Source of the DNA: Pseudomonadaceae bacterium UBA836
Lineage (GTDB): Bacteria; Pseudomonadota; Gammaproteobacteria; Pseudomonadales; Pseudomonadaceae
Reading direction: 5' to 3'
Length of the DNA stretch: 19,358 bases
Assembly (NCBI GenBank): GCA_002296055.1
Contig: DBHE01000116.1
Coordinates: 1 to 19,358 of the forward strand
Shown here piece by piece: positions 3,286 through 18,288 of the stretch; position 1 is the first letter of the stretch; each line of letters opens with the position of its first letter. The notes beneath the pieces are model-generated. The model was given only the letters and a program-made list of their open reading frames with translations. It was not told where the DNA came from and did not search any database. Position numbers and translations under genes: made by a program.

Positions 3286-4248
3286 GTGGACAACGTCATT
3301 GCGGTGGAAAACCTGACCAAAACCTACGCCAGCGGCTTTCAGGCACTGAAAGGCGTCAGCCTGCACATTCGGCGGGGCGAAATTTTTGCGTTGCTTGGCC
3401 CTAATGGTGCCGGTAAGACCACGCTGATCAGTATCGTTTGCGGGCTGGTCAATCCCAGTAGTGGGCAGGTGCTGGTCGATGGCTTTGATAACCGCCGGCA
3501 GTATCGGCAGGCGCGCCAGCTGATCGGTCTGGTGCCGCAAGAGCTGACCAACAACATGTTCGACAGTGTCTGGTCAACGGTACGCCTCAGCCGCGGGCTG
3601 TTCGGCAAGCCCAGTAATGACGCCCTGCTGGAGCAGATATTGCGTGAGCTGTCGCTCTGGGATAAGCGCGATGAGCGCATCATGGACCTGTCCGGCGGCA
3701 TGAAACGTCGAGTGCTGATTGCCAAGGCGTTGGCCCACGAGCCTGAAGTACTGTTTCTGGATGAGCCGACTGCTGGCGTGGACGTGGCGCTGCGCCGGGA
3801 CATGTGGAACATGGTGCGACGTCTGCAGCAACGCGGGGTGACCATCATCCTGACGACGCATTACATCGAAGAGGCCGAAGAAATGGCCGATCGCATCGGG
3901 GTGATTCGTCAGGGTGAGCTGATCCTTACCGAGGACAAGGATAGCCTGATGCGCCAGCTTGGTACCCGGCAGTTGACGCTCCAGCTGCAGCAGCCGCTGC
4001 AAGCGGTGCCGTCTGCGTTAAGTCATTACCCGTTGACGCTGGCAGAGCAGGGCTTTGCGCTGATCTATACTTTCGATGCGCAGGCAGAGCAAAGTGGTAT
4101 TGCAGAGCTGTTGCGCAGCGTGGATCAGCTGGGCATCGAGGTGCGTGACCTGCACTCGAGTCAGAGCTCGCTGGAGGATATTTTCGTGGGGCTTGTGCAC
4201 AATCGAGAAAAGGCCGAGCAGCCAGCGGCAGCGGGGGAGAGTGCATGA
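3286..4248 (+). CDS. ABC-2 type exporter, ATP-binding subunit (YadG-like)
   Basis: The protein has 320 residues. All ATPase motifs are intact: Walker [10 protein letters not shown] (38-46), Q-loop Q85 in LVPQEL, signature LSGGM (135-139), Walker B VLFLDEP (155-161) and the H-loop histidine H192 in [10 protein letters not shown]. Residues from about 230 form the extra C-terminal domain common in DrrA/YadG-type exporter ATPases. Sequence around SGGMKRR and [13 protein letters not shown] resembles E. coli YadG. It would power the permease encoded by the next gene, overlapping by ATGA. The start is GTG 3286, with GGCGGAG (3274-3280) 5 nt upstream. The exported substrate is not known. Although it lies just before the pel operon, nothing in the sequence ties it to Pel secretion, and a separate pel promoter intervenes. 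Confidence 0.9.
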
Positions 4249-5006
4249 ATCTGTATGGGGTCAAGGCTATCTATCTTGCCGAGATGGCGCGGATGCTGCG
4301 CACGCGGCTGCAGAGCATTGCCTCGCCGGTCATTTCTACTTCGCTGTACTTTATCGTCTTTGGGGCCGCCATTGGCACGCGCATGACGGAAGTGGACGGG
4401 GTGAGCTACGGCGCCTTTATTATTCCCGGGCTTATCATGCTGATGCTCCTTAACGAGAGCATTTCCAACGCCTCGTTCGGCATTTACATGCCGCGTTTCA
4501 CGGGCACCATCTACGAGGTGCTGTCGGCGCCGGTGTCGCCCTTTGAGATTGTGGTGGGATACGTCGGGGCGGCGGCCACCAAGTCGGTGTTGCTCGGGCT
4601 GCTGGTGTTGCTGACGGCGCGGATCTTCGTGGACTACGAGATTCAGCACCCTGTGTGGATGCTCGGTTTTCTCTTGCTGACAGCCATCACCTTCAGTCTG
4701 TTCGGATTCATCATCGGTATCTGGGCGGACGGCTTCGAGAAACTGCAGATCATTCCCTTGATGATAGTGACGCCACTGGCTTTTCTGGGTGGCAGCTTCT
4801 ACTCCATCACCATGCTGCCGCCGTTCTGGCAGACAGTTACCCTGTTCAACCCCGTGGTTTATCTGATTAGCGGCTTTCGCTGGAGTTTTTACGGCGCTGC
4901 CGATGTGCACATCGGCGTGAGCGTGGGCATGACGTTGGTGTTTCTCGCGCTGTGTCTGCTGGTGATCTGGTGGATATTCCGTACGGGCTTTCGTATTAAA
5001 CCCTGA
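4245..5006 (+). CDS. ABC-2 type exporter, permease subunit (YadH-like)
   Basis: The protein has 253 residues and about six membrane helices, the standard size for an ABC-2 permease. A typical cytoplasmic amphipathic start ([20 protein letters not shown]) precedes the first helix. The family region [26 protein letters not shown], with the conserved glycine-rich GGSFYS turn, lies near residues 167-192. The final helix is followed by a short basic tail (FRTGFRIKP). It pairs with the preceding ATPase through the ATGA overlap (4245-4248), implying translational coupling and a heteromeric inner-membrane exporter. No clear terminator hairpin follows the TGA at 5004-5006; the AT-rich pel control region begins within about 10 bp, so some read-through into pel cannot be excluded. 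Confidence 0.9.
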
Positions 5007-5177: not shown

Positions 5178-5391
5178 CAATTTGGTGCTGCTGTTGTCGC
5201 GTTGTCTTGCTCGTGGCCTGGCGCTGCGCTGCCTGTCGGTGGTGTTTATGCTGAGCCTATTCGCTCCGGGGCCAGCCGCCGCCCAAGGCAAGCTCCAGTC
5301 GGTCGCGTTTTGGTACGCCGCCGAGCCGCCGCTGCCCGAGCTTGCTCAGTACGACTGGGTGGTGCTTGAGCCTGGCCATATCGCGGCCGAC

Positions 5392-5394
5392 TAG
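5392..5394 (+). other. In-frame amber codon disrupting pelA
   Basis: The codons before it (EPGHIAAD) and after it (VAFLRAQGAVPYAYLSVGEL) both read as PelA in one frame, so a single substitution explains the stop. A CAG (Gln) codon changed by C to T is the simplest origin; AAG, GAG, TGG or TAC/TAT are also one base away. TAG is used as the genuine stop of the GIY-YIG gene, pelD and pelF in this window, which argues against a reassigned code. Confidence 0.85.
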
Positions 5395-7950
5395 GTTGCT
5401 TTCCTGCGCGCCCAAGGCGCAGTGCCCTATGCCTACCTGTCGGTCGGCGAACTGTCCCCTGAAGATGAAGCCCTGCCAGATGCCGAGCAGCTGTCGAGCG
5501 GCGAGCGCAATCGCGAGTGGCAGAGCGACATCGCTGATCTTGCCAGCCCCCAGTGGCAGCAACGACTGCTCGACCGTGCGGCGGCGCTGCAGGGCGCCGG
5601 TTATCGTGGCCTCTTTCTGGACACTATGGACAGCTTCATGCGCCTGCCCGAGAGCCGCCGAGCGGAGCAGCAGCAGGGGCTGGTTGCGCTTCTGCAGCGC
5701 TTGCACGCTGAGTATCCGCAGCTGCAGTTATTCTTTAATCGCGGCTTTGAGGTATTACCGCAACTGGATTTCGCACCTGCTGCTGTAGCGGTGGAGTCAC
5801 TGGAGGCCAGTTGGGATCAGGCGCAGGGCCGCTACCGCCGTGTGCCGGAAAATGACCGTGCTTGGCTCGATGGCCAGCTTCAGCCTCTGCTGGCGGCCGG
5901 CGTACCGGTGGTGGCTATCGAGTACTTGCCGCCCGAGCAGCGCGAACAGGCGCGCGATCTGAGTCGCCGGCTGCAGCAAGAGGGCTTTGTGCCGGTGGTG
6001 ACCACACCGGATCTGGACTCATTGGGGGTGGGCACGCTGGAGATCGTTCCACGTCGCATTGCCTTGTTGTTTGATCCACGTGAAGGCGAGTTGACCCGTA
6101 CCCAAGGCCATGTGTTTCTGGGCGGTCTGCTGGAGTATCTGGGCTATCGCGTGGACTACTTCCCGGTCGACGGGCATTTGCCCCAGCGCCGCTTCGACGA
6201 GCTGTACGCCGGCGTTGTGGTGTGGATGACCAGTGGAGCACCTTCACAGGCCAGTGACTTCCGTCGTTTTCTGCAGGCACGGCTGAATGAGGGTACGCGC
6301 ATTGCGTTCTTTGGCGGTATGCCGCTGGATGACGCCCGCCTGCTGTCGCGGCTTGGGCTGCGGCGGCTGCCCTACGACCCGGATAACGTCAGCCTCAGCC
6401 GTGTGGACAGCTCGCTGCTTGGCAATTTTGAAGCCCCTCTGCGCCTGCGCTCACGTGATTTGCTGGCGCTGACTGCCGATGAAGACGTGCTGCGCCCGGC
6501 GCTGCAGTTACTGGATCACCAGCAGAACCTGCTCACACCGGTCGCGCTGGGCGACTGGGGCGGCTATGCGCTGGCGCCTTATCTGTTCCAGGAGTCGGCT
6601 TCCAGCCGGCGCTGGATACTCGATCCTTTCCGTTTTCTACAGCAAAGTCTGCAGCTGCAGCCCTTGCCGGCGCTGGATACCACGACCGAAAACGGTCGCC
6701 GCATCGCCACTGTGCATATTGATGGCGACGGTTTTGCCTCCCGCGCAGAGATACCCGGCACGCCCTACTCTGGCGAGGTGGTCCTGCGCGACTTCATTCG
6801 GGCCAACAACTATCTGACCTCGGTGTCGGTGGTGGAAGGCGAAGTCGGTCCCAAGGGGATGTATCCGTATCTGAGTCAGCGTCTGGAGCCCATCGCCCGC
6901 CGCATTTTTGCTGACCCGAAGGTGGAGCCAGCCACGCACACGTTCAGCCATCCCTTTTTCTGGGAGCCCGAGAAGGCCAGCCAGCGTGAGGGGTTTAACC
7001 CGGTTTACGGGCTGCACATGAACGTTCCCAATTACCCGAAGATGGACCTGCAGCGGGAAATCGTCGGCTCACGGGACTATATCCAGCAGTCGTTATTGCC
7101 GGCGGACAAGCAGGTGCGCCTGATCTTCTGGTCGGGGGAGGCGTTGCCCAGCGCGGAGGCGATCCAGATGGCCTATGACGCTGGCATGGCCAACGTCAAT
7201 GGTGCTGAAACTTACATTACCCGCGCCAACCCGTCGCTGACCGGGCTCTACCCGCTCTTGCGCCCGACCCGCGGCGGTTTGCAGATTTACGCGCCGATCA
7301 TCAACGAAAACCTTTACACCAACCTGTGGACCGGGCCTTTCTACGGGTTTGAGCGCGTGCTGGACACCTTTGAACTGACCGACTCTCCGCGCCGTTTGCG
7401 CGGTATGCATCTCTACTATCACTTCTACTCCGGTACCAAGCAGGCATCGATCAAGGCCATGGCGGATGTCTACGCTGCCATGGACCGGCAAGAACCGATC
7501 TCGCTGTGGATGGGCGACTACCTGCGCCGCGTGCGCGGGCTCTATGAGGGTAGTCTGGCGCGCCGCAGCGATGGCCGCTGGCAGTTGCGTGCATTGCAGG
7601 GGCTGCGCACTGTGCGGCTTGATCCGCAGCTGGGCTGGCCCGATCTGCTGCATTCTGAAGGGGTCGCTGGCGTGCGGGATTTGCCACAGGGCCGTTATGT
7701 CCACTTGAGCAGCGATCGCGCGGTGCTGGCGCTGCGGCCTGACCGCGATGGTGCGCCCGCCCTGGAGTACGCCAACGTGCCCGTCCAGCAATGGCAGTAT
7801 CAGCATGAGCGTGAGGTCAAGCTGTCGATGGCCGGCGCCTTTGCGCTGCGCTTTGCCGTGCGGTACGCCGGTAGCTGCAGCCTGTCAGTCGACGGGCGTC
7901 GTTACCAAGGGCAGCGCCGTGGTGGGCTGCTGGAGTTTGCACTGGAGCAA

Positions 7951-7963: not shown

Positions 7964-10900
7964 ATGCAGTACTCGCCTGCCGCTGAGTCGACCCCACTAT
8001 TCCGGCCCTGGGCCCTTGGCCTGGCGGTTTTGCTGGTTGCCGTGGTGCTGGTGCTGACTTATCAAAACAAAAGCGCATTCATGCCGCAGGGTGAGACCGA
8101 TGCGGTGTCCGTCGGCTACGCCGAATTGCTGCTCACGGCTGAGCCCGAGAACATCGAGTTGCGTGCCGAGCTTGTAGAAATGCTGATCGAGCGCGGCGAG
8201 TTTTCCCGCGCACTCCGGCATCTGAGCGATTGGCAGGGCGGCGACGAGCAACTTCGTCGTTTTTATAACCTGGTGCTCGATGGCCGCATGGCAACAGTGC
8301 GCCGCGATGAGCAGGCGATTGCACAGGCGCGTCAGCGACTGGCCGCGTTCGATTTGACCGGGTTGACCCCGGCACAACAGGCAGAGTTGGCGGAGCTGGC
8401 GTTGGCGCTGGGCATGCCAGGCCGGGCAGCGGATTTGCATTTGGCGCTGGCCCAGGCCGAGGGACCTGACCGGCAGACGCACCAACTGGCTGCCGCGCGT
8501 TGGTATCTGGCGGCCGAGCGGCCGGCCGAGGCGTCAGCGATCTATCAGCAGTTGGCGGAAACGGCACGCACAGTCGAGGGGCGCCGGCAGTTTGCCAAGC
8601 TGGCCTACGACGGCTTGCTGGCTGCAGACCAGGCCGAGGCTGCCAGCCTCTATGCTGTGCAGTTGCTAGACAGTGGCAGCCTGAGCAGTCTGGGCGAAGA
8701 CTGGTGGCTGCCGAGCGTGCAGGTTGCTCAGGGAGCCAGACGGTATGACCTGGCGACCCGTTTGGCAGAACATTGGCGCGCCCAGGAGCCGGATAACGTT
8801 GCGGCACTGCAAGCGCGCTTTGATATGGCGCTGGCTGCCGGCGATACGGCAACGGCCTGGGAGATAGGGCAGACGCTGGTGAAAGAGGCTCCGCCCAATG
8901 CCGCGCTGTTACGGCAAATGGCGCAGCTCGGCCAGTGGCGGGGCAAACCTGAGGCGGCGCTGGACTACTGGATTGCCTATCTGGATATGGCCGAGGACGC
9001 CGAGGCACGCAATCAGGCCTGGCGCCTGGCGTTCCAGCTGTTCGACTACAACCGTGGCGTGCAGCTGCTGAGCGGCATGGCAGCCTCCCGGCGCCTTACC
9101 GACAAAGAGCTGGACGCGCTGATTTATGCCCACGAGCAGCGCGGCACGCCGGCGATGGCGGAAAACTGGCTACGCGGCTACCTGCAGCGCGCCGCCAGTC
9201 AGCGTTTGGCTTGGACGCGGCTGATGCAGAACCTGCAGAACCGTCAATTGCTGCAGCGTGAAGCCGACACATGGCCGCAGTTCGCCGGCCGGCATCAGCT
9301 CACTATCAGTGAACGTATGAGCTGGGCCGAGGTGTTGTGGAACCTGTACCAACCCGAACAAGCCTGGCAAGTACTGGATGTGGCGCCGCTGGACCAGCTC
9401 AGCCCAGATTACTGGCGTTTGCGCGCAGCCCTGGCCTGGGAGCTGGAGCAAGACGATGCGGTACAGGCCAGCTACGAGGCGCTGCTTGCCCAGGGAGCGG
9501 TACTGCTGCAGAGCGAGCAGGCACAGCTGATCGATATGTATCGCCAGCAAAATCCAGAGTTGGCGCTGCGCATGCTGACCGCCAACTGGCGGCGCAGTGG
9601 CGATAGCCGCTATCTGGTCGATGCGCTGCAACTCGCTGAGGATCAGCAGGATTGGACGCTGTTGGCTGCCCTGGTGGCCGAGGCGGAGCAGTCACCGACC
9701 ACCGCCGAGCTGTTGCCGGTATTGCTTGCGCGCGGCCTGCTGGCAGAGCGCGCCGGACGCTTTGCGGAGGCCGAGCGGCTGTACTTGCATGGGCTTTCTC
9801 AGCAGCCGCGCAACAGTCTGCTGCGCGCGCGGCTGCTCTGGTTGTTTGTCGATAGAGTAGATCGCAGCAAGCTGGAGCGTGCCCTGCGGCAGTGGGAAGG
9901 TGAGGCCCAGTCGGTCCCCGTTATGTGGCTGCCGATGGGCGCTGCCAACCAGCTGCTCTCGCGCAATACCCAGGCGCTGCAGTGGTTCAATCGTCACCTG
10001 CGCGATAACCCGCAGGACACCTTGGCCTTGGCCGCCTACGCCGATGCCCTGGAGGCCAGCGGCCGGGAAGCTGCCGCACTGCAGCTGCGTAGTCGCTTGC
10101 TGAATCGTTTGCGTTTTGCCGATATCGAGCGGGCTCCCTATACCGAGCGCCAGACCTGGGCACGACTGATGACCGCCGGTGGGTCACCGCGTCAGGCGCT
10201 GGCAGGGCTGCAGCGCTGGCACGACGGCTCGGTCGGCACGCTGCAGCTTTGGTATGCCGCTCAGCTGGCTCGCTTGGACAGTATCAATCAGGAAGCACAG
10301 AAGGATGCCTGGTTGGCCTGGGGGCGCGAGCGCGGCCTGCGGGAAGAAGGGTATCAGCGAATTCAGGAAGCGCTGCGAACCAATCGGCGTGAGGCGTTGG
10401 CGGCGTTGCTGGTCAACCCGCAGGTTGATGATGCCCACCGGGTTGCTGCATTGGAACGCCTTGGCGATGACAACCAGGCCATGGCGCAAGCACTGTCCTC
10501 GCTGGGCGAGCAGCAGCCGCTGGCGGTGCGCCGGCAGTTGTGGCGGCAATCGGTCGCCTTCCTGGAGCGCTACCCGCAAGGGCTGCGCGTTGGCTGGGGA
10601 GAGGAGGATTTCGGCGGATTGAAGACTCGCGGTCCGCAGCTCAGTATTGCCCGTTTTATTGGCGAGAACTGGTACCTGCGCGCCGATGGTGGCCGGGCAG
10701 AGTATGACTCGCCGCTGCTCGACAGCAGTGTGCTGGGCGCGGAACGCAATTTGCTGCTGCGTGCCGAGCGCCAGTTGCCGAACGGCGACCTGTCGCTAGA
10801 GCTGGATCACAGCGGCCGGCAGGATGACAACCGCACCGGTGTCGGCATTGCGCGGCGCTGGAGTGAAGGTGGCAATGAAGTCGAAGTAGGTGCGGACTTG

Positions 10901-11518
10901 CAGCGCGAAAGTCGTGAGACCGGCCTGATGCGCGCGTTGGGCGAGGAAAGCGCGCTGTGGTTGCGCGCCAGCCATGCCTTCAGTGCGCGCGATCAACTGA
11001 GCTGGCAGGTGTCACAGCGCCAGTTTGACAGCCGCTCGGGGATTGATATCGGCTCCGGTAAGCAGGTGAATCTGGAGTTCAGTCAGATTCAGTTTTTTGA
11101 GGGCCCTACCTGGATTCTTCGCACGGGTATCGAGTGGCAGCGCAACAGCCTCAGTGGTGAGTCGCTGGGTTCTCTGCTGGTGGCTAACGGTGGAGCTGTG
11201 CGGCAAGACGATGTGACGGCCGACCAACTGCTGCCCGAGCGTGTGGGCCGGGTCTACATTGGTAGCCAGCTGCGCCGGGGGATGCCAGGCCTGATCAACC
11301 GCAATCGCGGCCAATACACCTGGCTGCTGGACGCTTCTACCGGTTGGGACTGGGAAGAGCAGAGCATGAATTTCGCCCTCAATGCCGGTATTGGCATCGA
11401 GGTGTTTGGCGACGACGAACTGTCGTTCACCGCCGGCTACCAATCGGAGCCGATTGGGGGTGATGGTGAGGCAGGCGGTACCGCAACGATTTCCTACAGC
11501 AGTCGCTTTGGCCGCTGA
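7964..11518 (+). CDS. pelB: PelB, outer-membrane Pel export porin with periplasmic TPR scaffold
   Basis: The protein has 1184 residues (P. aeruginosa PelB has 1193). A single N-terminal membrane helix (about 15-34, WALGLAVLLVAVVLVLTY) anchors it in the inner membrane. Residues about 45-860 are a long alpha-helical superhelix of TPR-like repeats, rich in paired A/L helices such as LLTAEPENIELRAELVEMLI and ARGLLAERAGRFAEAERLYLHG. From about residue 877 (VGWGEEDFGG) the sequence turns to alternating amphipathic beta-strands ending in ATISYSSRFGR, the outer-membrane beta-barrel through which Pel leaves the cell. In the known system the TPR region binds PelA and raises its deacetylase activity, so loss of PelA would leave the scaffold without its partner. 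The start overlaps pelA by 23 bp and has a very strong ribosome-binding site. Confidence 0.95.
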   Translation: MQYSPAAESTPLFRPWALGLAVLLVAVVLVLTYQNKSAFMPQGETDAVSVGYAELLLTAEPENIELRAELVEMLIERGEFSRALRHLSDWQGGDEQLRRFYNLVLDGRMATVRRDEQAIAQARQRLAAFDLTGLTPAQQAELAELALALGMPGRAADLHLALAQAEGPDRQTHQLAAARWYLAAERPAEASAIYQQLAETARTVEGRRQFAKLAYDGLLAADQAEAASLYAVQLLDSGSLSSLGEDWWLPSVQVAQGARRYDLATRLAEHWRAQEPDNVAALQARFDMALAAGDTATAWEIGQTLVKEAPPNAALLRQMAQLGQWRGKPEAALDYWIAYLDMAEDAEARNQAWRLAFQLFDYNRGVQLLSGMAASRRLTDKELDALIYAHEQRGTPAMAENWLRGYLQRAASQRLAWTRLMQNLQNRQLLQREADTWPQFAGRHQLTISERMSWAEVLWNLYQPEQAWQVLDVAPLDQLSPDYWRLRAALAWELEQDDAVQASYEALLAQGAVLLQSEQAQLIDMYRQQNPELALRMLTANWRRSGDSRYLVDALQLAEDQQDWTLLAALVAEAEQSPTTAELLPVLLARGLLAERAGRFAEAERLYLHGLSQQPRNSLLRARLLWLFVDRVDRSKLERALRQWEGEAQSVPVMWLPMGAANQLLSRNTQALQWFNRHLRDNPQDTLALAAYADALEASGREAAALQLRSRLLNRLRFADIERAPYTERQTWARLMTAGGSPRQALAGLQRWHDGSVGTLQLWYAAQLARLDSINQEAQKDAWLAWGRERGLREEGYQRIQEALRTNRREALAALLVNPQVDDAHRVAALERLGDDNQAMAQALSSLGEQQPLAVRRQLWRQSVAFLERYPQGLRVGWGEEDFGGLKTRGPQLSIARFIGENWYLRADGGRAEYDSPLLDSSVLGAERNLLLRAERQLPNGDLSLELDHSGRQDDNRTGVGIARRWSEGGNEVEVGADLQRESRETGLMRALGEESALWLRASHAFSARDQLSWQVSQRQFDSRSGIDIGSGKQVNLEFSQIQFFEGPTWILRTGIEWQRNSLSGESLGSLLVANGGAVRQDDVTADQLLPERVGRVYIGSQLRRGMPGLINRNRGQYTWLLDASTGWDWEEQSMNFALNAGIGIEVFGDDELSFTAGYQSEPIGGDGEAGGTATISYSSRFGR

Positions 11519-11540: not shown

Positions 11541-12059
11541 ATGCGCATTCTCAAGGGTATGACACTGGCGGCGACTCTGCTGGTCGTCTCCGCCTGCAGT
11601 ACCTTCTCCGGGAACAACGGCCCGAGCTTTCCAGCATCAGCCAGCTGGGGTTTGTTACCGATGGTCAACTATTCGCAGACCCCGCAAGCCGGCGAGCGCA
11701 GCGAGCAGATTCTGCTTAGCGTACTGTCGGAAGAGGGCATTCAGCCGCGCATCTATCCGCATGTCGAGGATCAGGACTTGCTGGTACTGGATGACCACAA
11801 GCGCTACGAGCAAGCGCTGCAGTGGGCTCAGGGCCAGGGCTTTGATTACCTGGTCAGCGGCAGTGTCGAAGAGTGGCAGTACAAGAATGGCCTGGACGGC
11901 GAGCCGGCCGTAGGCTTGAGCCTGCGGGTGCTGGATGCGCGCACCGGACAGGTGCTGTGGAGCAACAGCGGTGCCCGTGCCGGCTGGTCGCGCGAGAGTC
12001 TCGCCGGCTCGGCGCAGAAGGTACTTAATACTCTGATCGGTGACCTGCGGATCGAATAA
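11541..12059 (+). CDS. pelC: PelC, outer-membrane lipoprotein of Pel export
   Basis: The protein has 172 residues, the same length as P. aeruginosa PelC. The lipoprotein signal is clear: a basic start (MRILKG), a hydrophobic core, and lipobox VSAC with the acylated cysteine at position 19. Serine at +2 favours outer-membrane sorting over inner-membrane retention. The mature part is an alpha/beta domain related to the TolB-type N-terminal fold (LLPMVNYSQTPQAGERSEQILLSVLSEEGI, then LDARTGQVLWSNSG). In the known system twelve PelC subunits form a ring at the periplasmic mouth of the PelB barrel and funnel the cationic polymer. I chose ATG 11541, with AAAGGAG (11528-11534) 6 nt upstream; an in-frame upstream start at 11382 would bury the signal peptide and overlap pelB heavily. 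The TAA stop shares one base with the pelD ATG. Confidence 0.95.
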   Translation: MRILKGMTLAATLLVVSACSTFSGNNGPSFPASASWGLLPMVNYSQTPQAGERSEQILLSVLSEEGIQPRIYPHVEDQDLLVLDDHKRYEQALQWAQGQGFDYLVSGSVEEWQYKNGLDGEPAVGLSLRVLDARTGQVLWSNSGARAGWSRESLAGSAQKVLNTLIGDLRIE

Positions 12060-13423
12060 TGTTCAAGAACTCGGTGCACAAGGATTATCGCCTGGCGCCC
12101 GGCAACAATCGTCGCTGGTCCTGGGTGGAAACGCCGCTGCTAACGGCTCTTGTGCTGGGGGTATGCTATTGGCTGCACCCGGCGGACCCGCTGTTTCTGC
12201 AGGGCTTCCCGTGGCCGATTCTGGCGCCACTGCTGTTAGCGGTGCGCTACGGTTTTTTGCAAGGTGCGTGCAGTGCGGCGCTGCTGGTGCTGGTCGCCTA
12301 TGTTCTGCACCGCCTGGACTTCCCGGGTTACGTCGAGGTGCCAGGCTCCTTTATCGTCGGCGTACTGGTCGCCAGCATGGTGGTTGGCGAGTTTCGAGAC
12401 CTCTGGGGTCGTCGCCTAGAGCGACTGCAAACGGCCAACGAGTATCGCCAGTACCGGCTTGACGAATTTACCCGCGCCTATCATGTGCTGCGCAGCTCCC
12501 ATGAGCGGTTGGAGCAGCGCGTTGCTGGCAGTGATACCAGTCTGCGCAGCACGCTGCTGTTGCTTCGGCGTCAGCTGCAGGAACAGCCGCAGGGTGATGC
12601 ACTTGAGCAGATGGCACCCGCGCTGCTGGGGGTATTGGCTCAGTATGGCTCTTTCAACGCGGCGGCGCTTTATGCCGTGCGCGAGGGAGAGCTGCTGTTG
12701 CAGCGGCCGCTGGCAGATATTGGCGAAGCGGTTGAGCTGCCTGAGGATGACCTGCTGCTGACACTGTGCCTGCAGCGAGGTGAAGTGGTCAGCGTGCGCG
12801 ACAGTTTTCTGGAAACTGGCCGAGAAGAGCAGGTGTCGGCGCTACAGGCGTGTATCCCCCTGTTGTCGGTAGAAGGGGAGGTGCTGGCGGTGGTTGCGGT
12901 TCATAGCATGCCCTTCTTCGCATTCAACGAGCGCACCTTTACCTTGTTGGCACTCTTGGGTGGGCACATGGCTGACCTGCTGGAAACGCCGCGCCAGTTG
13001 CTGCGTCCAGACGATGCCGAAGCGCGCCGTTTCTCTCAGCAGCTGCGCCGTGCGCTGCGCGATGCAACCGAACACGATCTGCCCAGCAGTTTGGCGTTTT
13101 TGAAGTTGCCGGATGATAGCGTTGCCTTGCAAAAGCTGCTGATTGAAAGCCAGCGAGGTCTCGATCTGCAGCTGGTCTTGCAGTGCGCCAATGGAGCAGA
13201 GGGCGTGCTGGTACTGATGCCTCTGACAGATCAGGACGGCAGCCGCGGATACAGTCAGCGTTTGAATCGTATGGTGCAAGAGCGCTTCGATAACGCATCC
13301 AGCCTCGAGGCTCTGGGGGTTGGCATTCACTATTACGAGATCCGCCAGAACAAGCCGGACAGCGCCTTGGCCGAGTTTTTATATCAGGAGTGTGGGCTGA
13401 ATGAGCAGCAAGTGGCTATTTAG
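12059..13423 (+). CDS. pelD: PelD, inner-membrane c-di-GMP receptor of the Pel synthase
   Basis: The protein has 454 residues (455 in P. aeruginosa). Residues about 25-113 hold four membrane helices (TPLLTALVLGVCYWL to FIVGVLVASMVV). A charged, probably coiled linker (115-175) precedes a GAF domain (about 185-310) and a degenerate GGDEF domain (about 318-450) lacking the cyclase motif. The inhibitory-site residues that bind c-di-GMP in P. aeruginosa PelD, R367-x-x-D370 and R402, correspond to R366-G-L-D369 and R401 here, so the receptor looks functional: it would switch on polymer synthesis post-translationally at high c-di-GMP. It is not predicted to make c-di-GMP. The start overlaps the pelC stop by one base (TAATG), and the end overlaps pelE by 23 bp, indicating translational coupling. 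Its stop is TAG. Confidence 0.95.
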   Translation: MFKNSVHKDYRLAPGNNRRWSWVETPLLTALVLGVCYWLHPADPLFLQGFPWPILAPLLLAVRYGFLQGACSAALLVLVAYVLHRLDFPGYVEVPGSFIVGVLVASMVVGEFRDLWGRRLERLQTANEYRQYRLDEFTRAYHVLRSSHERLEQRVAGSDTSLRSTLLLLRRQLQEQPQGDALEQMAPALLGVLAQYGSFNAAALYAVREGELLLQRPLADIGEAVELPEDDLLLTLCLQRGEVVSVRDSFLETGREEQVSALQACIPLLSVEGEVLAVVAVHSMPFFAFNERTFTLLALLGGHMADLLETPRQLLRPDDAEARRFSQQLRRALRDATEHDLPSSLAFLKLPDDSVALQKLLIESQRGLDLQLVLQCANGAEGVLVLMPLTDQDGSRGYSQRLNRMVQERFDNASSLEALGVGIHYYEIRQNKPDSALAEFLYQECGLNEQQVAI

Positions 13424-14381
13424 CGGCGCCCTGGCCTTTGAGCTGGGCAGCTGGGGTGGGCTGCTGAGCAACCCCTCGCTTATCGAGGGGTTGTACCTGT
13501 ATGTGGTCCCCCATGCCATCGCCTCTGTCATGTTGGCAGCGGCACTTTGGCTGGTGCTGCCTAGGCGCTACCGCTTTCCTTTGCCCTGGTCTCCGATGCT
13601 GCTGTTCAGTCTGATTTTCTTTATTCCGGTGGCTGGTGCCGTCGGTGTCATGCTGGGAGTCTTTCCCGGGCTGTATCTGCCACGGCGCGAGGTTGAGCAG
13701 GGTTGGCAGCTGACGCGCATGCCGAGCCTGCCGTACCGGGCCGTCGACGAGTGGCACTCGCCGCTGTTTAACGACGGTGGCTTGCAGGACGTACTGCAAC
13801 TGGCTGGCGACTCTGAACGCCGGCTGTCTGCCTTGCTGGCGACCCGAGCGATGCCTGGAAATGACGCCGTGCCAGTGCTGAAGTTGGCGCTGCGTGATCC
13901 GGAAGACGATGTGCGCTTGCTGGCCTACTCGATGCTTGATCAGCGCGAGAACCGTATCAATCAGCATATCGAACGCCTTCTTGAGCGGCAGGCTGAGACG
14001 CCTTCTGCGGGGACTCGCGCAGTCCTCGCCGGGTGGTACTGGGAGCTGGCCTACCTGGGGCTGGCGCAGGGCGGCGTGTTGCAGCACGTTTTGCAGCAGG
14101 CGCTGGAACACGCTGATGCTGCGCTGCGTTCCGAGCCTTCCGGCGATCTTGCGGTGCTTGCGGGGCGTATTCAGATTGCGCGTGGTCAGGCTGCCGAGGC
14201 CCGGCGCTATCTGGAACAGGCGGCCGATCTTGGGGTGGGTACCACCCGACTGGCGCCCTTGCTGGCCGAGGTCGCGTTTCTTGAGCATCGCTACAGTGAG
14301 GTCGTCAATCAGTTGCAACGCATCAGCCCAGCCATGCGCGCCAAGCCGCCGTTGGCAGCGACCGCAGGATATTGGTTATGA
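13401..14381 (+). CDS. pelE: PelE, inner-membrane TPR protein of the Pel synthase
   Basis: The protein has 326 residues, close to P. aeruginosa PelE. Two clear membrane helices lie near residues 32-54 (YLYVVPHAIASVMLAAALWLV) and 64-90 (SPMLLFSLIFFIPVAGAVGVM); an earlier hydrophobic stretch is weaker. The remainder (about 110-326) is helical with TPR character, for example VLAGRIQIARGQAAEARRYLEQAADLG and LAPLLAEVAFLEHRYSEVVNQLQRI. In the known system PelE bridges PelD, PelF and PelG in the inner membrane. CAGGAG (13385-13390) precedes ATG 13401 by 10 nt, inside the pelD coding region. The TGA stop overlaps the pelF ATG as ATGA, a tightly coupled junction. No catalytic motif is visible, consistent with a scaffold role. 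Confidence 0.93.
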   Translation: MSSKWLFSGALAFELGSWGGLLSNPSLIEGLYLYVVPHAIASVMLAAALWLVLPRRYRFPLPWSPMLLFSLIFFIPVAGAVGVMLGVFPGLYLPRREVEQGWQLTRMPSLPYRAVDEWHSPLFNDGGLQDVLQLAGDSERRLSALLATRAMPGNDAVPVLKLALRDPEDDVRLLAYSMLDQRENRINQHIERLLERQAETPSAGTRAVLAGWYWELAYLGLAQGGVLQHVLQQALEHADAALRSEPSGDLAVLAGRIQIARGQAAEARRYLEQAADLGVGTTRLAPLLAEVAFLEHRYSEVVNQLQRISPAMRAKPPLAATAGYWL

Positions 14382-15883
14382 GTACACCTCAGGCGGATAT
14401 CTGTCTGCTGCTCGAAGGCACCTGGCCCTATGTCCGGGGGGGCGTCTCCAGCTGGGTGCACCAGATGTTGCTGGGGCTGCCGGATGTACGCTTTAGCGTG
14501 GTGTTCATCGGTGGCGAACGCGATGCCTACCCGCAGCGCCACTACCTGATACCCCCCAACGTGGTGCATCTGGAAGAGATTTTTGTTTCAGATGCCTGGC
14601 GCTATCCTGCCCGCCCGGATGACACGCCGCCGAGCGGAGATCGGGATGCGCTGGAAAGTCTGTACCGCTACTTCCAGCATCCGGACATGCCAACGCCGGA
14701 GCACGGCCAGGAGCTATTGCGGCAGCTGGTCGCCGGTCGCATCACCAGCGCCCAGTTGCTGCGCAGCGAAGCCAGTTGGCAGGTATTGAGCCAGGGTTAC
14801 CTGGAGCATTGCAGCGACCCGTCGTTCATCGACTATTTCTGGACCCTGCGTACCATGCAGACGCCGCTGGTCATGCTGACCGAGTTGCTGGGCAGACTGC
14901 CGCGTGCCCGCGCTGTACATGCGGTATCCACCGGCTACGCCGGGCTGCTCGGAGCGCTGCTGAAGGGCTACTGGCAGTGCCCCTTTATCCTTACCGAGCA
15001 CGGTATTTATACCAAGGAGCGCAAGATCGATCTGGCTCAGGCTGCCTGGGTGGCGGGTAAGAGCGAGGAGTCTGAAGTCAGCGGTCTGGCGGCTACCAGT
15101 GGTTACATCCGTACCCTGTGGATTCGCTACTTCGAACGTGCCGGCTTGCTGGCCTACCAGAATGCTGATCCGATCATCGCTCTGTATGAAGGCAACCGCG
15201 CGCGGCAGATTCGTGATGGCGCGCCACCGGCATTAACGCAGGTGATCCCCAACGGTATTGCCTTGAGTGAGTGGCAGCAGGTCCGAGCCCATCGGCCGGA
15301 GGGCATCGCACCGGTTGCTGGTTTGATCGGCCGCGTCGTGCCGATCAAGGATGTGAAAACCTTTCTGCGTGCCGTGCGGTCGGTGGTCAATGAAATACCT
15401 GACTTTGAGGCCTGGATTGTCGGCCCCGAAGATGAGGACCCGGCCTACGCCCACGAATGCCACAGTCTGGTCAGCAGTCTGGGCTTGACTGGCCAGGTGC
15501 GCTTTTTGGGCTTCTGCAACATTCGCGAAATCATGCCGCAACTGGGTGTGGCGGTGTTGACCTCTATCAGTGAGGCTCAGCCGCTGGTCATTCTTGAGGC
15601 CTGGTGCGCCGGTACGCCGGTAGTGAGCACCGATGTTGGCTCCTGCCGTGAACTCATCGAAGGGGTTGGTGAAGAAGATCGGGCGTTGGGTGTAGCCGGT
15701 GAGGTGGTGCCAATTGCCGATCCGCTGGCCACGGCCAGAGCAATCCAGCGACTGCTGCAGAATCCCGACCGCTGGCATGCTGCGCAGCAGGCTGGCGAGC
15801 AGCGGGTGCAGCGGCGCTACAGTGATGATTTGATGTTTGCGCGTTATTGGCGGCTGTACCGCGCCGCGATGGGAGAGGGTTAG
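14378..15883 (+). CDS. pelF: PelF, cytoplasmic GT4-family glycosyltransferase (Pel polymerase)
   Basis: The protein has 501 residues (507 in P. aeruginosa) and no membrane helix. The N-domain begins CLLLEGTWPYVRGGVSSWVHQML, the glycine-rich acceptor-side loop of GT4 enzymes. TEHGIYTKERKIDL (about 206-219) is the family histidine segment. In the C-domain, GLIGRVVPIKDVKTF carries the Arg/Lys pair that contacts the nucleotide-sugar phosphates, and the catalytic E-x7-E motif is E399 and E407 in SEAQPLVILEAW. It would polymerise a UDP-sugar, probably UDP-GalNAc, into Pel at the inner membrane; the sugar donor is inferred from the known product. The start is ATG 14378 (AGGA at 14366-14369, 8 nt upstream), overlapping the pelE stop; the TTG two codons earlier is less likely. 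It ends with TAG. Confidence 0.95.
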   Translation: MSTPQADICLLLEGTWPYVRGGVSSWVHQMLLGLPDVRFSVVFIGGERDAYPQRHYLIPPNVVHLEEIFVSDAWRYPARPDDTPPSGDRDALESLYRYFQHPDMPTPEHGQELLRQLVAGRITSAQLLRSEASWQVLSQGYLEHCSDPSFIDYFWTLRTMQTPLVMLTELLGRLPRARAVHAVSTGYAGLLGALLKGYWQCPFILTEHGIYTKERKIDLAQAAWVAGKSEESEVSGLAATSGYIRTLWIRYFERAGLLAYQNADPIIALYEGNRARQIRDGAPPALTQVIPNGIALSEWQQVRAHRPEGIAPVAGLIGRVVPIKDVKTFLRAVRSVVNEIPDFEAWIVGPEDEDPAYAHECHSLVSSLGLTGQVRFLGFCNIREIMPQLGVAVLTSISEAQPLVILEAWCAGTPVVSTDVGSCRELIEGVGEEDRALGVAGEVVPIADPLATARAIQRLLQNPDRWHAAQQAGEQRVQRRYSDDLMFARYWRLYRAAMGEG

Positions 15884-15888
15884 AGCAG

Positions 15889-17259
15889 ATGGCCGGTATC
15901 GGATTTGAACTGCGGCGCATTCTCGCCAAGGATAGCTACAGCGCCACGCTGCGAGCCTATCTCTATGCCGGGTTAATCAGCTCGGGCCCTTGGGTGTTGT
16001 CGATTATCAGCGTGATGCTGATCGGCATCATGAGTATCGGGTTTGTGGTGCCAGACCTGCTGGTACGCCAGTTTCTGGTCAGTGTTACCTACCTGATGGC
16101 AACCTCGCTGATTGTGACCGGCGGCTTGCAGCTGTTCTTTACGCGCTTTGTTTCCGACCGATTGTTTGAGCAGCGCATGGATGCGATTACGCCCAATCTG
16201 CTCGGCATCTTGCTGATGGTCACGTTGTTTTCCGGTCTGCTGGGGACCTTGGTGCTGGTGGCCCTGTTTGATCAGCCCTTTGTTTACCGGGTGCTGATGC
16301 TGGCCAATTTTGTGACCTTGTGCAATCTGTGGCTGGTGATCGTGTTTTTGTCCGGCATGAAAGCCTACAACCGTATTCTGGTAGTGATGCTGCTGGGCTA
16401 CGCTGGGATGATTTTTACCGCGTTCTTTCTGCGCAACGCCGGTATGGATGGGCTGCTGCTGGCGCTGTTGATCGGGCATGCGCTGTTGTTGTTCATTTTC
16501 CTGTTTGATGTGCTGCGTCAGTATCCGTCCGAGCGGCTGGTTGCGTTTGAGTTCTTGCAGCGGCGCAAGGTGTTCGTCAGCCTGCTGGTGACTGGCTTTT
16601 GCTACAACCTGGGCATCTGGATCGACAAATTCCTGTTCTGGGGTAGCGAGGCCACGTCTGAGCAGGTGATTGGCCCGCTGCGCGCGTCGTTGATCTACGA
16701 TCTGCCGATCTTTCTCGCCTATTTGTCGATCATTCCCGGTATGGCGGTGTTCCTGGTACGTATCGAGACCGACTTTGCCGAATGGTATGACCGTCTGTTT
16801 CGCGCGGTGCGTGAGGGCGAGACGCTGCAGCATATTCGGCAGTTGAAGAACGAAATGACGCTGTCGATTCGTCAGGGATTGCAGGAAATCTGCAAGGTTC
16901 AGGGGCTGACCGTGCTCTTGCTGTTTCTCGGCGCGCCCATGCTGCTGGAGCAGCTGGGGATATCACAGCACTACCTGCCGCTGTTTTATGTGGATCTGGT
17001 CGGTGTCAGCGTACAGGTGGTGTTTATGGCGCTGCTCAACGTGTTCTTCTATCTCGACAAACGCCGAGTAGCGCTAGAGCTGTGCCTGCTGTTTGTCCTG
17101 CTCAACGCGGTGCTTACCCTGGCTACCCTGTATCTGGGTCCAACCTTCTTTGGCTACGGCTTCACCGTTTCGCTGATTATTTGTGTGCTGATGGGGTTGT
17201 TTCGCCTCAATCAGGCGCTGCAGAAGCTGGAGTACAGCACCTTTATGCTGGAGCACTGA
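15889..17259 (+). CDS. pelG: PelG, polytopic inner-membrane protein of Pel synthesis/translocation
   Basis: The protein has 456 residues, the same length as P. aeruginosa PelG, and about twelve hydrophobic segments from the first near residue 22 (YLYAGLISSGPWVLSIISVML) to the last ending near residue 450. It begins with the family-typical cytoplasmic MAGIGFELRRILAKDSY. PelG is related to the MOP/Wzx flippase superfamily and is thought to move the growing polymer across the inner membrane together with PelD, PelE and PelF. I chose ATG 15889, 5 bp after the pelF stop, with a purine-rich site (15871-15879) upstream; an earlier in-frame ATG at 15847 lies inside pelF and adds a non-family extension. 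The stop codon is embedded in the stem of the hairpin that closes the operon. Confidence 0.95.
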   Translation: MAGIGFELRRILAKDSYSATLRAYLYAGLISSGPWVLSIISVMLIGIMSIGFVVPDLLVRQFLVSVTYLMATSLIVTGGLQLFFTRFVSDRLFEQRMDAITPNLLGILLMVTLFSGLLGTLVLVALFDQPFVYRVLMLANFVTLCNLWLVIVFLSGMKAYNRILVVMLLGYAGMIFTAFFLRNAGMDGLLLALLIGHALLLFIFLFDVLRQYPSERLVAFEFLQRRKVFVSLLVTGFCYNLGIWIDKFLFWGSEATSEQVIGPLRASLIYDLPIFLAYLSIIPGMAVFLVRIETDFAEWYDRLFRAVREGETLQHIRQLKNEMTLSIRQGLQEICKVQGLTVLLLFLGAPMLLEQLGISQHYLPLFYVDLVGVSVQVVFMALLNVFFYLDKRRVALELCLLFVLLNAVLTLATLYLGPTFFGYGFTVSLIICVLMGLFRLNQALQKLEYSTFMLEH

Positions 17260-17280: not shown

Positions 17281-18288
17281 TCAGCGTCGCTTGTTACGCA
17301 GTTGCTGTACCAGCCCCTTGGGCGGGTGCCGGATGACCAGCGCGTCTTCAGTCTCGTCGTATTCCACCCGCTCGCCAAGCAGGTGTGACTCAAAGCTGAT
17401 CGACAGCCCGTCAGCCTTGCCGTAGTAGCGCAGGAAATTATTGATCGCGCGCTTGTCCGCTGGCATCTCCGGGTTTAGGCCGTAATCCTTGTTGCGGATG
17501 TAGTCGTAGAAGGCGCGTGGATGCTCCTCGTCCAATACCCCTGACAGCTCCTCCAGTGCCACCTGCTCGCCGGCACGGGTCTGGCTGTTGACGTAGCTGC
17601 TCATGGCCTTGGCTTTGTCTTTCACCAGTTCTGGCTCAAGTGAGGCTTCACCGACATAGTCGCTGAAGGCCTGCAGAAGGGTGTTGGTCTCTTCCTCTGG
17701 ATTGGCTCCTTCGACACAACCGATAAAGTCGCGGAAGTAATCCGATACCCGCTTGCCGCTGCGCCCGCGGATGAAGGAGATATAGTTCTTGGCGCTGGCG
17801 TTCTGTTTCCACTCAGTCAGATTGATGCGTGCGGCCATGTTCAGGCTGGACAGATCGAGATGGCGGGCGGCCGCCACGTCCAGCTCATCGGTCACGGTTA
17901 CGCCTTCGGTATGGTGCAGCAGTGCGATAACCAGAAACGCGGTCATGCCCTGGCGGTAGCGGATAAACAACACGTGTCCGCCCAATGCCAGGTTGGAGCC
18001 TTCCATCAGCGTTTTCAGGTGTTCAGTGGCCTGGCTGGAGAAATGGACGAAGTCCAGCTCCTGATCAATCAGTTGTTGCAGCCAGCCGCTGAAAGGATAG
18101 GCGCCGCTTTCGTTGTGGAAGTAGCCCCAGGCCTTGTTCGGCTTGCTGTTGTAGGCCTCGATCAGACCGGCCAGCAGTTGCTCCAGCGCAGCCGAGCTGG
18201 CCAGCTCGGCATCGCGCAGGGTCAGGCTGGCCGGCTGGCCATCGGGCTTCTTGTGGATCTGATGAACAATGCTGTTGTCGATGGGCAT
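17281..18288 (-). CDS. yejK: Nucleoid-associated protein YejK/NdpA
   Basis: The protein has 335 residues, the same length as E. coli YejK. The N-terminal region [29 protein letters not shown] and the segment [22 protein letters not shown] are family hallmarks. Further conserved stretches are [46 protein letters not shown], and a C-terminal basic end ([17 protein letters not shown]). The family is abundant in the proteobacterial nucleoid and binds double-stranded DNA; its precise role is not established. The start is ATG 18288-18286, after a purine-rich GAGAG leader. It converges on pelG with 21 bp between stops and lies downstream of valS on the same strand, separated by a strong hairpin, so it may have its own promoter or be read through from valS. 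Confidence 0.92.

Follow-up and report, generated by a model that had tools for sequence, protein, structure and literature searches.

An in-frame amber codon early in pelA of a Halopseudomonas draft genome: a recent knock-out allele or a consensus error

Introduction

A single TAG codon interrupts an otherwise open pelA frame in the window studied here, the whole stretch of 19,358 nucleotides that makes up contig C92 of the draft genome G000 (3.56 Mb in 275 contigs, 83.9% complete). The genome belongs to Halopseudomonas, and the draft is probably a metagenome bin. Does this codon record a loss of Pel in the organism, or does it exist in the draft sequence alone? An initial annotation held that secreted PelA, and with it Pel, would be lost, and it offered as explanations a recent loss, phase-like variation within a population, suppression by an amber-suppressor tRNA, or a sequencing or assembly error; it also proposed comparing the codon in close relatives, searching the genome for a tRNA with a CUA anticodon, and computing dN/dS for the part of pelA downstream of the stop.

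In a Pel overproducer of Pseudomonas aeruginosa, both deletion of pelA and a point mutation of its deacetylase leave no detectable Pel and no pellicle, according to the accessible part of PMC10269871. A natural isolate of this species with a nonsense codon in pelA forms poor biofilm, as described in the available portion of PMC12690498, which also cites conflicting reports on whether, in clinical isolates, absence of pelA goes along with loss of biofilm. Our literature search found no paper on the pel operon of Halopseudomonas.

Results

The amber codon and the pel operon

The TAG at positions 5392-5394 (+) is codon 70 of the 933-codon pelA, whose frame opens with a GTG at 5185 preceded by AGGAG, in agreement with the initial annotation (Table 1). 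The PelA-like frame is uninterrupted on both sides, as had been noted, with 69 open codons before the stop and 863 after it, and ends with a TGA at 7984-7986. The 854-residue piece downstream of the stop matches the PelA of a solved structure (9cgy) over residues 2-853, and the six catalytic residues of the hydrolase and deacetylase that had been called preserved, D146, E204, D513, D515, H585, and H589, are all in place, in frame, and downstream of the stop. The numbers follow the window's PelA; in P. aeruginosa PelA (P0107) the aligned residues are, in that order, D160, E218, D528, D530, H600, and H604. The locus therefore has the makeup of a pelA nonsense allele: one stop within the frame cuts off essential domains, and nearby homologues are intact. 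No second pelA copy was found in the G000 genome, and the plasmid relatives considered for the window came down to just two weak Cupriavidus matches, which were rejected.

Codons 1-69 are likely the sole translated part of pelA. Only three of the restart codons between the stop and position 6000 have any four-base match resembling a Shine-Dalgarno sequence, the first being an in-frame GTG at 5422 with a weak AAGG alone upstream.

The window carries a Gram-negative pelABCDEFG operon, its seven genes in the order pelA to pelG. PelB, PelD, PelF, and PelG were named from matches to family models, PelA from solved structures, and pelC and pelE from position and alignment; no model of Pfam or NCBIfam matched pelC. 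The start of pelG was set at an ATG inside a longer open reading frame (15847-17259), and the gene at the right edge of the pel site is yejK-like. The view that the six other pel genes are intact was borne out, since pelB to pelG each align in one frame, with no internal stop, to the nearest relative of the window, the single-contig genome G034. An apparent pelC stop in four relatives was an artefact of a query starting upstream of the ATG and disappeared with the correct start.

TABLE 1 Features of the pel site in the window and of altered pel sites in related genomes
Feature	Position	Strand	Remarks
ABC transporter pair abcA, abcB	3286..5006	+	Directly upstream; left edge of pel site; labels assigned here
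pelA codons 1-69	5185..5391	+	Signal peptide (judged by eye) and start of hydrolase; aligns to G034
In-frame TAG, codon 70 of pelA	5392..5394	+	Sense codon in 14/14 pel-bearing relatives found in the genus
Rest of pelA frame, 863 codons	5395..7983	+	Most of hydrolase domain, deacetylase, C-terminal domain
pelB	7964..11518	+	PF24604; overlaps end of pelA; intact compared to G034
pelC, lipoprotein	11541..12059	+	Full-length alignment to 14/14 relatives, no stop; named by position
pelD	12059..13423	+	PF16963 PelD_GGDEF
pelE	13401..14381	+	Operon position; aligns to 14/14 relatives; no Pfam match
pelF	14372..15883	+	NF038011 PelF, 721.5 bits
pelG	15889..17259	+	PF16933 PelG; intact compared to G034
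yejK-like gene	17281..18288	-	Right edge of pel site; adjoins abcB in two pel-less nested genomes
Empty pel site	L116:2831-4617 and L117:2770-4556		G006, G033
SSM26 pelB frameshift	L055:about 4500-4535		Extra copy of a 7-base unit compared to relatives

Codon 70 in relatives and in a nearly identical public protein

At an E value of 0.001 or better, pelA was detected in 15 of the 37 Halopseudomonas genomes, the window's included, and all 14 others found to bear pel have a sense codon at the stop column, among them G034 (96% identity). The comparison in close relatives that had been proposed thus indicates that the stop is not a family trait. This column is also filled in 119/119 other PelA proteins listed, 108 of which share one residue, a protein list being unable to show stops; the residue varies among close relatives of the window. 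In a family-wide sample, pelA was present at an E value of 1e-100 or better in 62 of 398 genomes, with an internal stop in the window and in G002 alone and the other 60 frames open over at least 917 codons. In an order-wide sample, which has G307 in common with the family sample, 14 of 293 genomes carry pelA, and none of the other 13 has an internal stop.

A public protein, P0001, is a 933-residue representative of a cluster of 7, encoded on a contig of 14,019 bases. It is identical to the window product at 863/863 residues after the stop; before it, the true difference lies at residue 37 alone, in addition to how the GTG start is written. The two were compared as protein, at which level silent differences are invisible, and P0001 is a single cluster representative whose origin may be a different assembly of this organism or this sample. 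One residue is common to 110 of 119 PelA proteins at the residue-37 column. The change at residue 37 and the stop lie no more than about 100 bases apart, the following 863 codons show no difference, and the chance that two random changes both fall within the first 70 of 933 codons is about 0.006. Because this intact copy exists, the stop is not fixed in the nearly identical lineage, and the TAG is therefore either a young, unfixed allele or a consensus error.

Selection on pelA

For the part of pelA downstream of the stop, dN/dS between the window and G034 is 0.046, the other pel genes ranging from 0.026 to 0.108; this calculation, also proposed at the outset, gave no sign of relaxed selection. 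Private nonsynonymous/synonymous changes number 4/46 in the window, 7/50 in G034, 3.5/51.5 in G021 (H. pachastrellae JCM 12285), and 5.5/50.5 in G002 (Pseudomonas [Halopseudomonas] abyssi MT5). No trace of long decay of pelA was found in the window or in H. abyssi.

Stops elsewhere in the draft

As a control that counts stops only, with frameshifts left out, TonB barrel and AMP-binding families were surveyed in four genomes, and 2 of 182 domain matches contained an in-frame stop (G000, 1/44; G034, 0/50; G021, 1/39; G002, 0/49). The stop in H. pachastrellae JCM 12285 is an in-frame TAG in an AMP-binding enzyme gene (G021:C28:70578-71720 (+)). A TonB-dependent receptor gene of G000 has an in-frame TAG at L070:14687-14689 (-), 73 codons before its end; in a TonB census of the 37 genomes, one gene in G000 and one in G008 carry a stop among the matches listed. 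A second public record, P0121, ends at the same residue as this receptor and differs from it at 2 of 665 residues, so some stops of the G000 draft are real. The pelA stop, unlike the TonB stop, does not recur in a second record.

Eleven stretches of G000, the window included, were also compared to G034 (100 G034 frames, 42,421 codons); as they were picked from family matches, the TonB stop among them, they do not yield an unbiased rate. The lesions judged clear are the pelA TAG, the TonB receptor TAG, and a disrupted gene for a PhoX-type alkaline phosphatase, all in G000; within G034 frames, no nonsense codon was accepted across these stretches. The PhoX gene (L076:2749-5159 (-)) aligns to G034 in three frames and contains a diverged 162-base repeat, its copies 88% alike and 376 bases apart, which may be a real partial duplication or a misassembly. 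The 5' part of one L076 gene has its G034 counterpart (L077) in a different frame, which may reflect a frameshift of G034 near the gene start. Within G000, a TonB gene of L066 and a 156-residue frame in L072 each align in two frames. Several further candidates were dismissed: five stops at residues 5 to 54 of over-extended G000 or G034 frames, and one at residue 126 of the TonB frame, were judged to precede the true starts, and two frames with 4 and 5 stops (the L077 gene in L076 and the L076 gene in L077) were treated as non-coding.

Pel genes across the clade

A tree of abcAB, covering 30 of the 37 genomes, placed nine genomes in one clade with support of 100/100, and in seven of the nine pelA comes right after abcB. 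The remaining two, G006 and G033, are nested in the clade (support 100/99); in both, the yejK-like gene directly follows abcB and is itself followed by valS. The reading frames of abcB and of the yejK-like gene, stop codons included, end 23 bases apart. No pel gene was found at this site, and neither pelA nor pelG was found elsewhere in either genome. The simplest reading is deletion of the operon; two separate pel gains at one site, instead of a deletion, are possible.

The pelA of H. abyssi MT5 contains an in-frame TGA at residue 693 of 933 (L054:12377-12379 (-); also L004 and L020), which lies inside the deacetylase by the domain limits given in the accessible text of PMC12690498; a separate, shortened H. 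abyssi cluster was not found among the best 120 of 186 matches. In P. neustonica SSM26 (G013), an extra 7-base tandem unit shifts the pelB frame near codon 355; this could be a sequencing error. The eight remaining Halopseudomonas genomes with pel showed no lesion in the pel genes read, the pelG of G019 running off its contig.

The MT5 TGA, the SSM26 frameshift, and the two empty sites are the grounds on which repeated loss of Pel is predicted in the nine-genome clade, and this evidence is suggestive. With the window counted in, five of the nine genomes would be Pel-negative, through four independent events. The statistics of this pattern are post hoc and weak: pelA stops occur in 2/7 clade genomes versus 0/55 elsewhere in the family sample (0.011), the chance that a second stop falls in the clade is 0.098 when G000 is treated as the ascertained case, and pel lesions occur in 3/7 clade genomes versus 0/8 in the rest of the genus (0.077).

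Discussion

If the allele is read as written, the ribosome would release a 69-residue product made up of a signal peptide and the beginning of the hydrolase, and any product restarted downstream, e.g., at GTG 5422, would have no signal peptide and would stay in the cytoplasm. Without the deacetylase of periplasmic PelA, export of the Pel polymer would fail. The pelB start lies within the end of pelA, so absence of pelA translation would probably also lower expression of pelB to pelG. The allele as written would be Pel-negative, and the initial expectation that Pel would be lost is sound by analogy with P. aeruginosa, in which a pelA deletion mutant lacks detectable Pel in the material available from PMC10269871. 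That the codon is real in cells, that Pel is lost, and that the stop is polar on the downstream genes are steps that we infer from the DNA.

Could full-length PelA be made despite the TAG, or could the site act as a switch? The frame downstream of the stop is fully conserved, as would be expected if an amber-suppressor tRNA or recoding allowed read-through. However, the search for a CUA anticodon found none among the 27 of 29 tRNA matches in G000 that could be typed, a survey that is incomplete because the draft is, several standard tRNAs also being absent from the 27. TAG is not depleted as a terminator, ending 13 of 98 closed frames sampled in G000 versus 14 of 94 in G034 under a mechanical frame filter, and P0001 is intact with no stop at this column. 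We regard read-through as highly improbable, and amber suppression gains no support from the typed tRNAs or the sampled terminators. Phase-like variation acting at the TAG fares no better: no direct or inverted repeat was found within 5330-5460, and the site lacks the short tandem repeat of phase variation by slippage, with no tandem array found at codon 70. The tandem frameshift in SSM26 pelB is potentially reversible, but it affects another gene in another species, and a reversible Pel switch working through the TAG site seems to us more improbable still.

The other early proposals, namely recent loss, variation within a population, and assembly error, are supported as a group by the intact P0001 and the absence of relaxed selection. 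A consensus error would mean that a miscalled or mixed base, from thin coverage or a mixture of strains, hides a working pelA. The fragmented and incomplete state of the draft fits such an error, as do the concentration of the clear lesions of the paired stretches in G000 and the partial-repeat look of its PhoX lesion. So do the two clustered changes at conserved columns in a sequence otherwise identical to P0001, a clustering that a local error or a mixed consensus explains no less well than a young allele does. On the other hand, recurrence of the TonB stop in P0121 indicates that not every lesion of G000 is an error, and a separate pelA stop is present in a named isolate from a related species. 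We give a consensus error slightly under an even chance. To the alternative, in which the TAG at 5392 represents a knock-out of pelA that arose very recently, is unfixed, and would block Pel export, we assign a probability of about 0.5. The TAG is real in the sequence, ordinary in kind, and uncertain in life.

Natural nonsense alleles of pelA and pelD are already published. P. aeruginosa PA121 likewise has a natural pelA nonsense codon (E537*) and is reported to have impaired biofilm; as far as the accessible part of PMC12690498 describes it, PA121 is a phenotyped isolate that keeps the hydrolase domain, whereas the window stop lies at codon 70 and is known from sequence alone. In Streptococcus intermedius AP2, a single nonsense SNP, in pelD, likewise separates two variants, but the gene and the operon type differ; in the strain concerned, deletion of pelD was shown to abolish aggregation, as described in the available portion of PMC12345266. 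H. abyssi MT5, a close relative, also has a lone in-frame stop in a pelA that is open elsewhere, although its stop is a TGA in the deacetylase of a named isolate and an independent event.

Taken alone, the TAG of the window is one more nonsense allele of natural origin in a dispensable biofilm gene, and its reality is doubtful. H. pachastrellae, H. abyssi, and P. neustonica are sea-living species, and the clade from H. pachastrellae to P. neustonica may be shedding Pel repeatedly, by different routes and at different stages, under relaxed or reversed selection on a biofilm matrix in open-water life; this idea is tentative, and we would sooner bet against it than for it. Should this pattern be confirmed across the clade, a natural series made up of H. 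pachastrellae, H. abyssi, P. neustonica, and the pel-less pair would be available for work on when and why a bacterium drops a biofilm polysaccharide.
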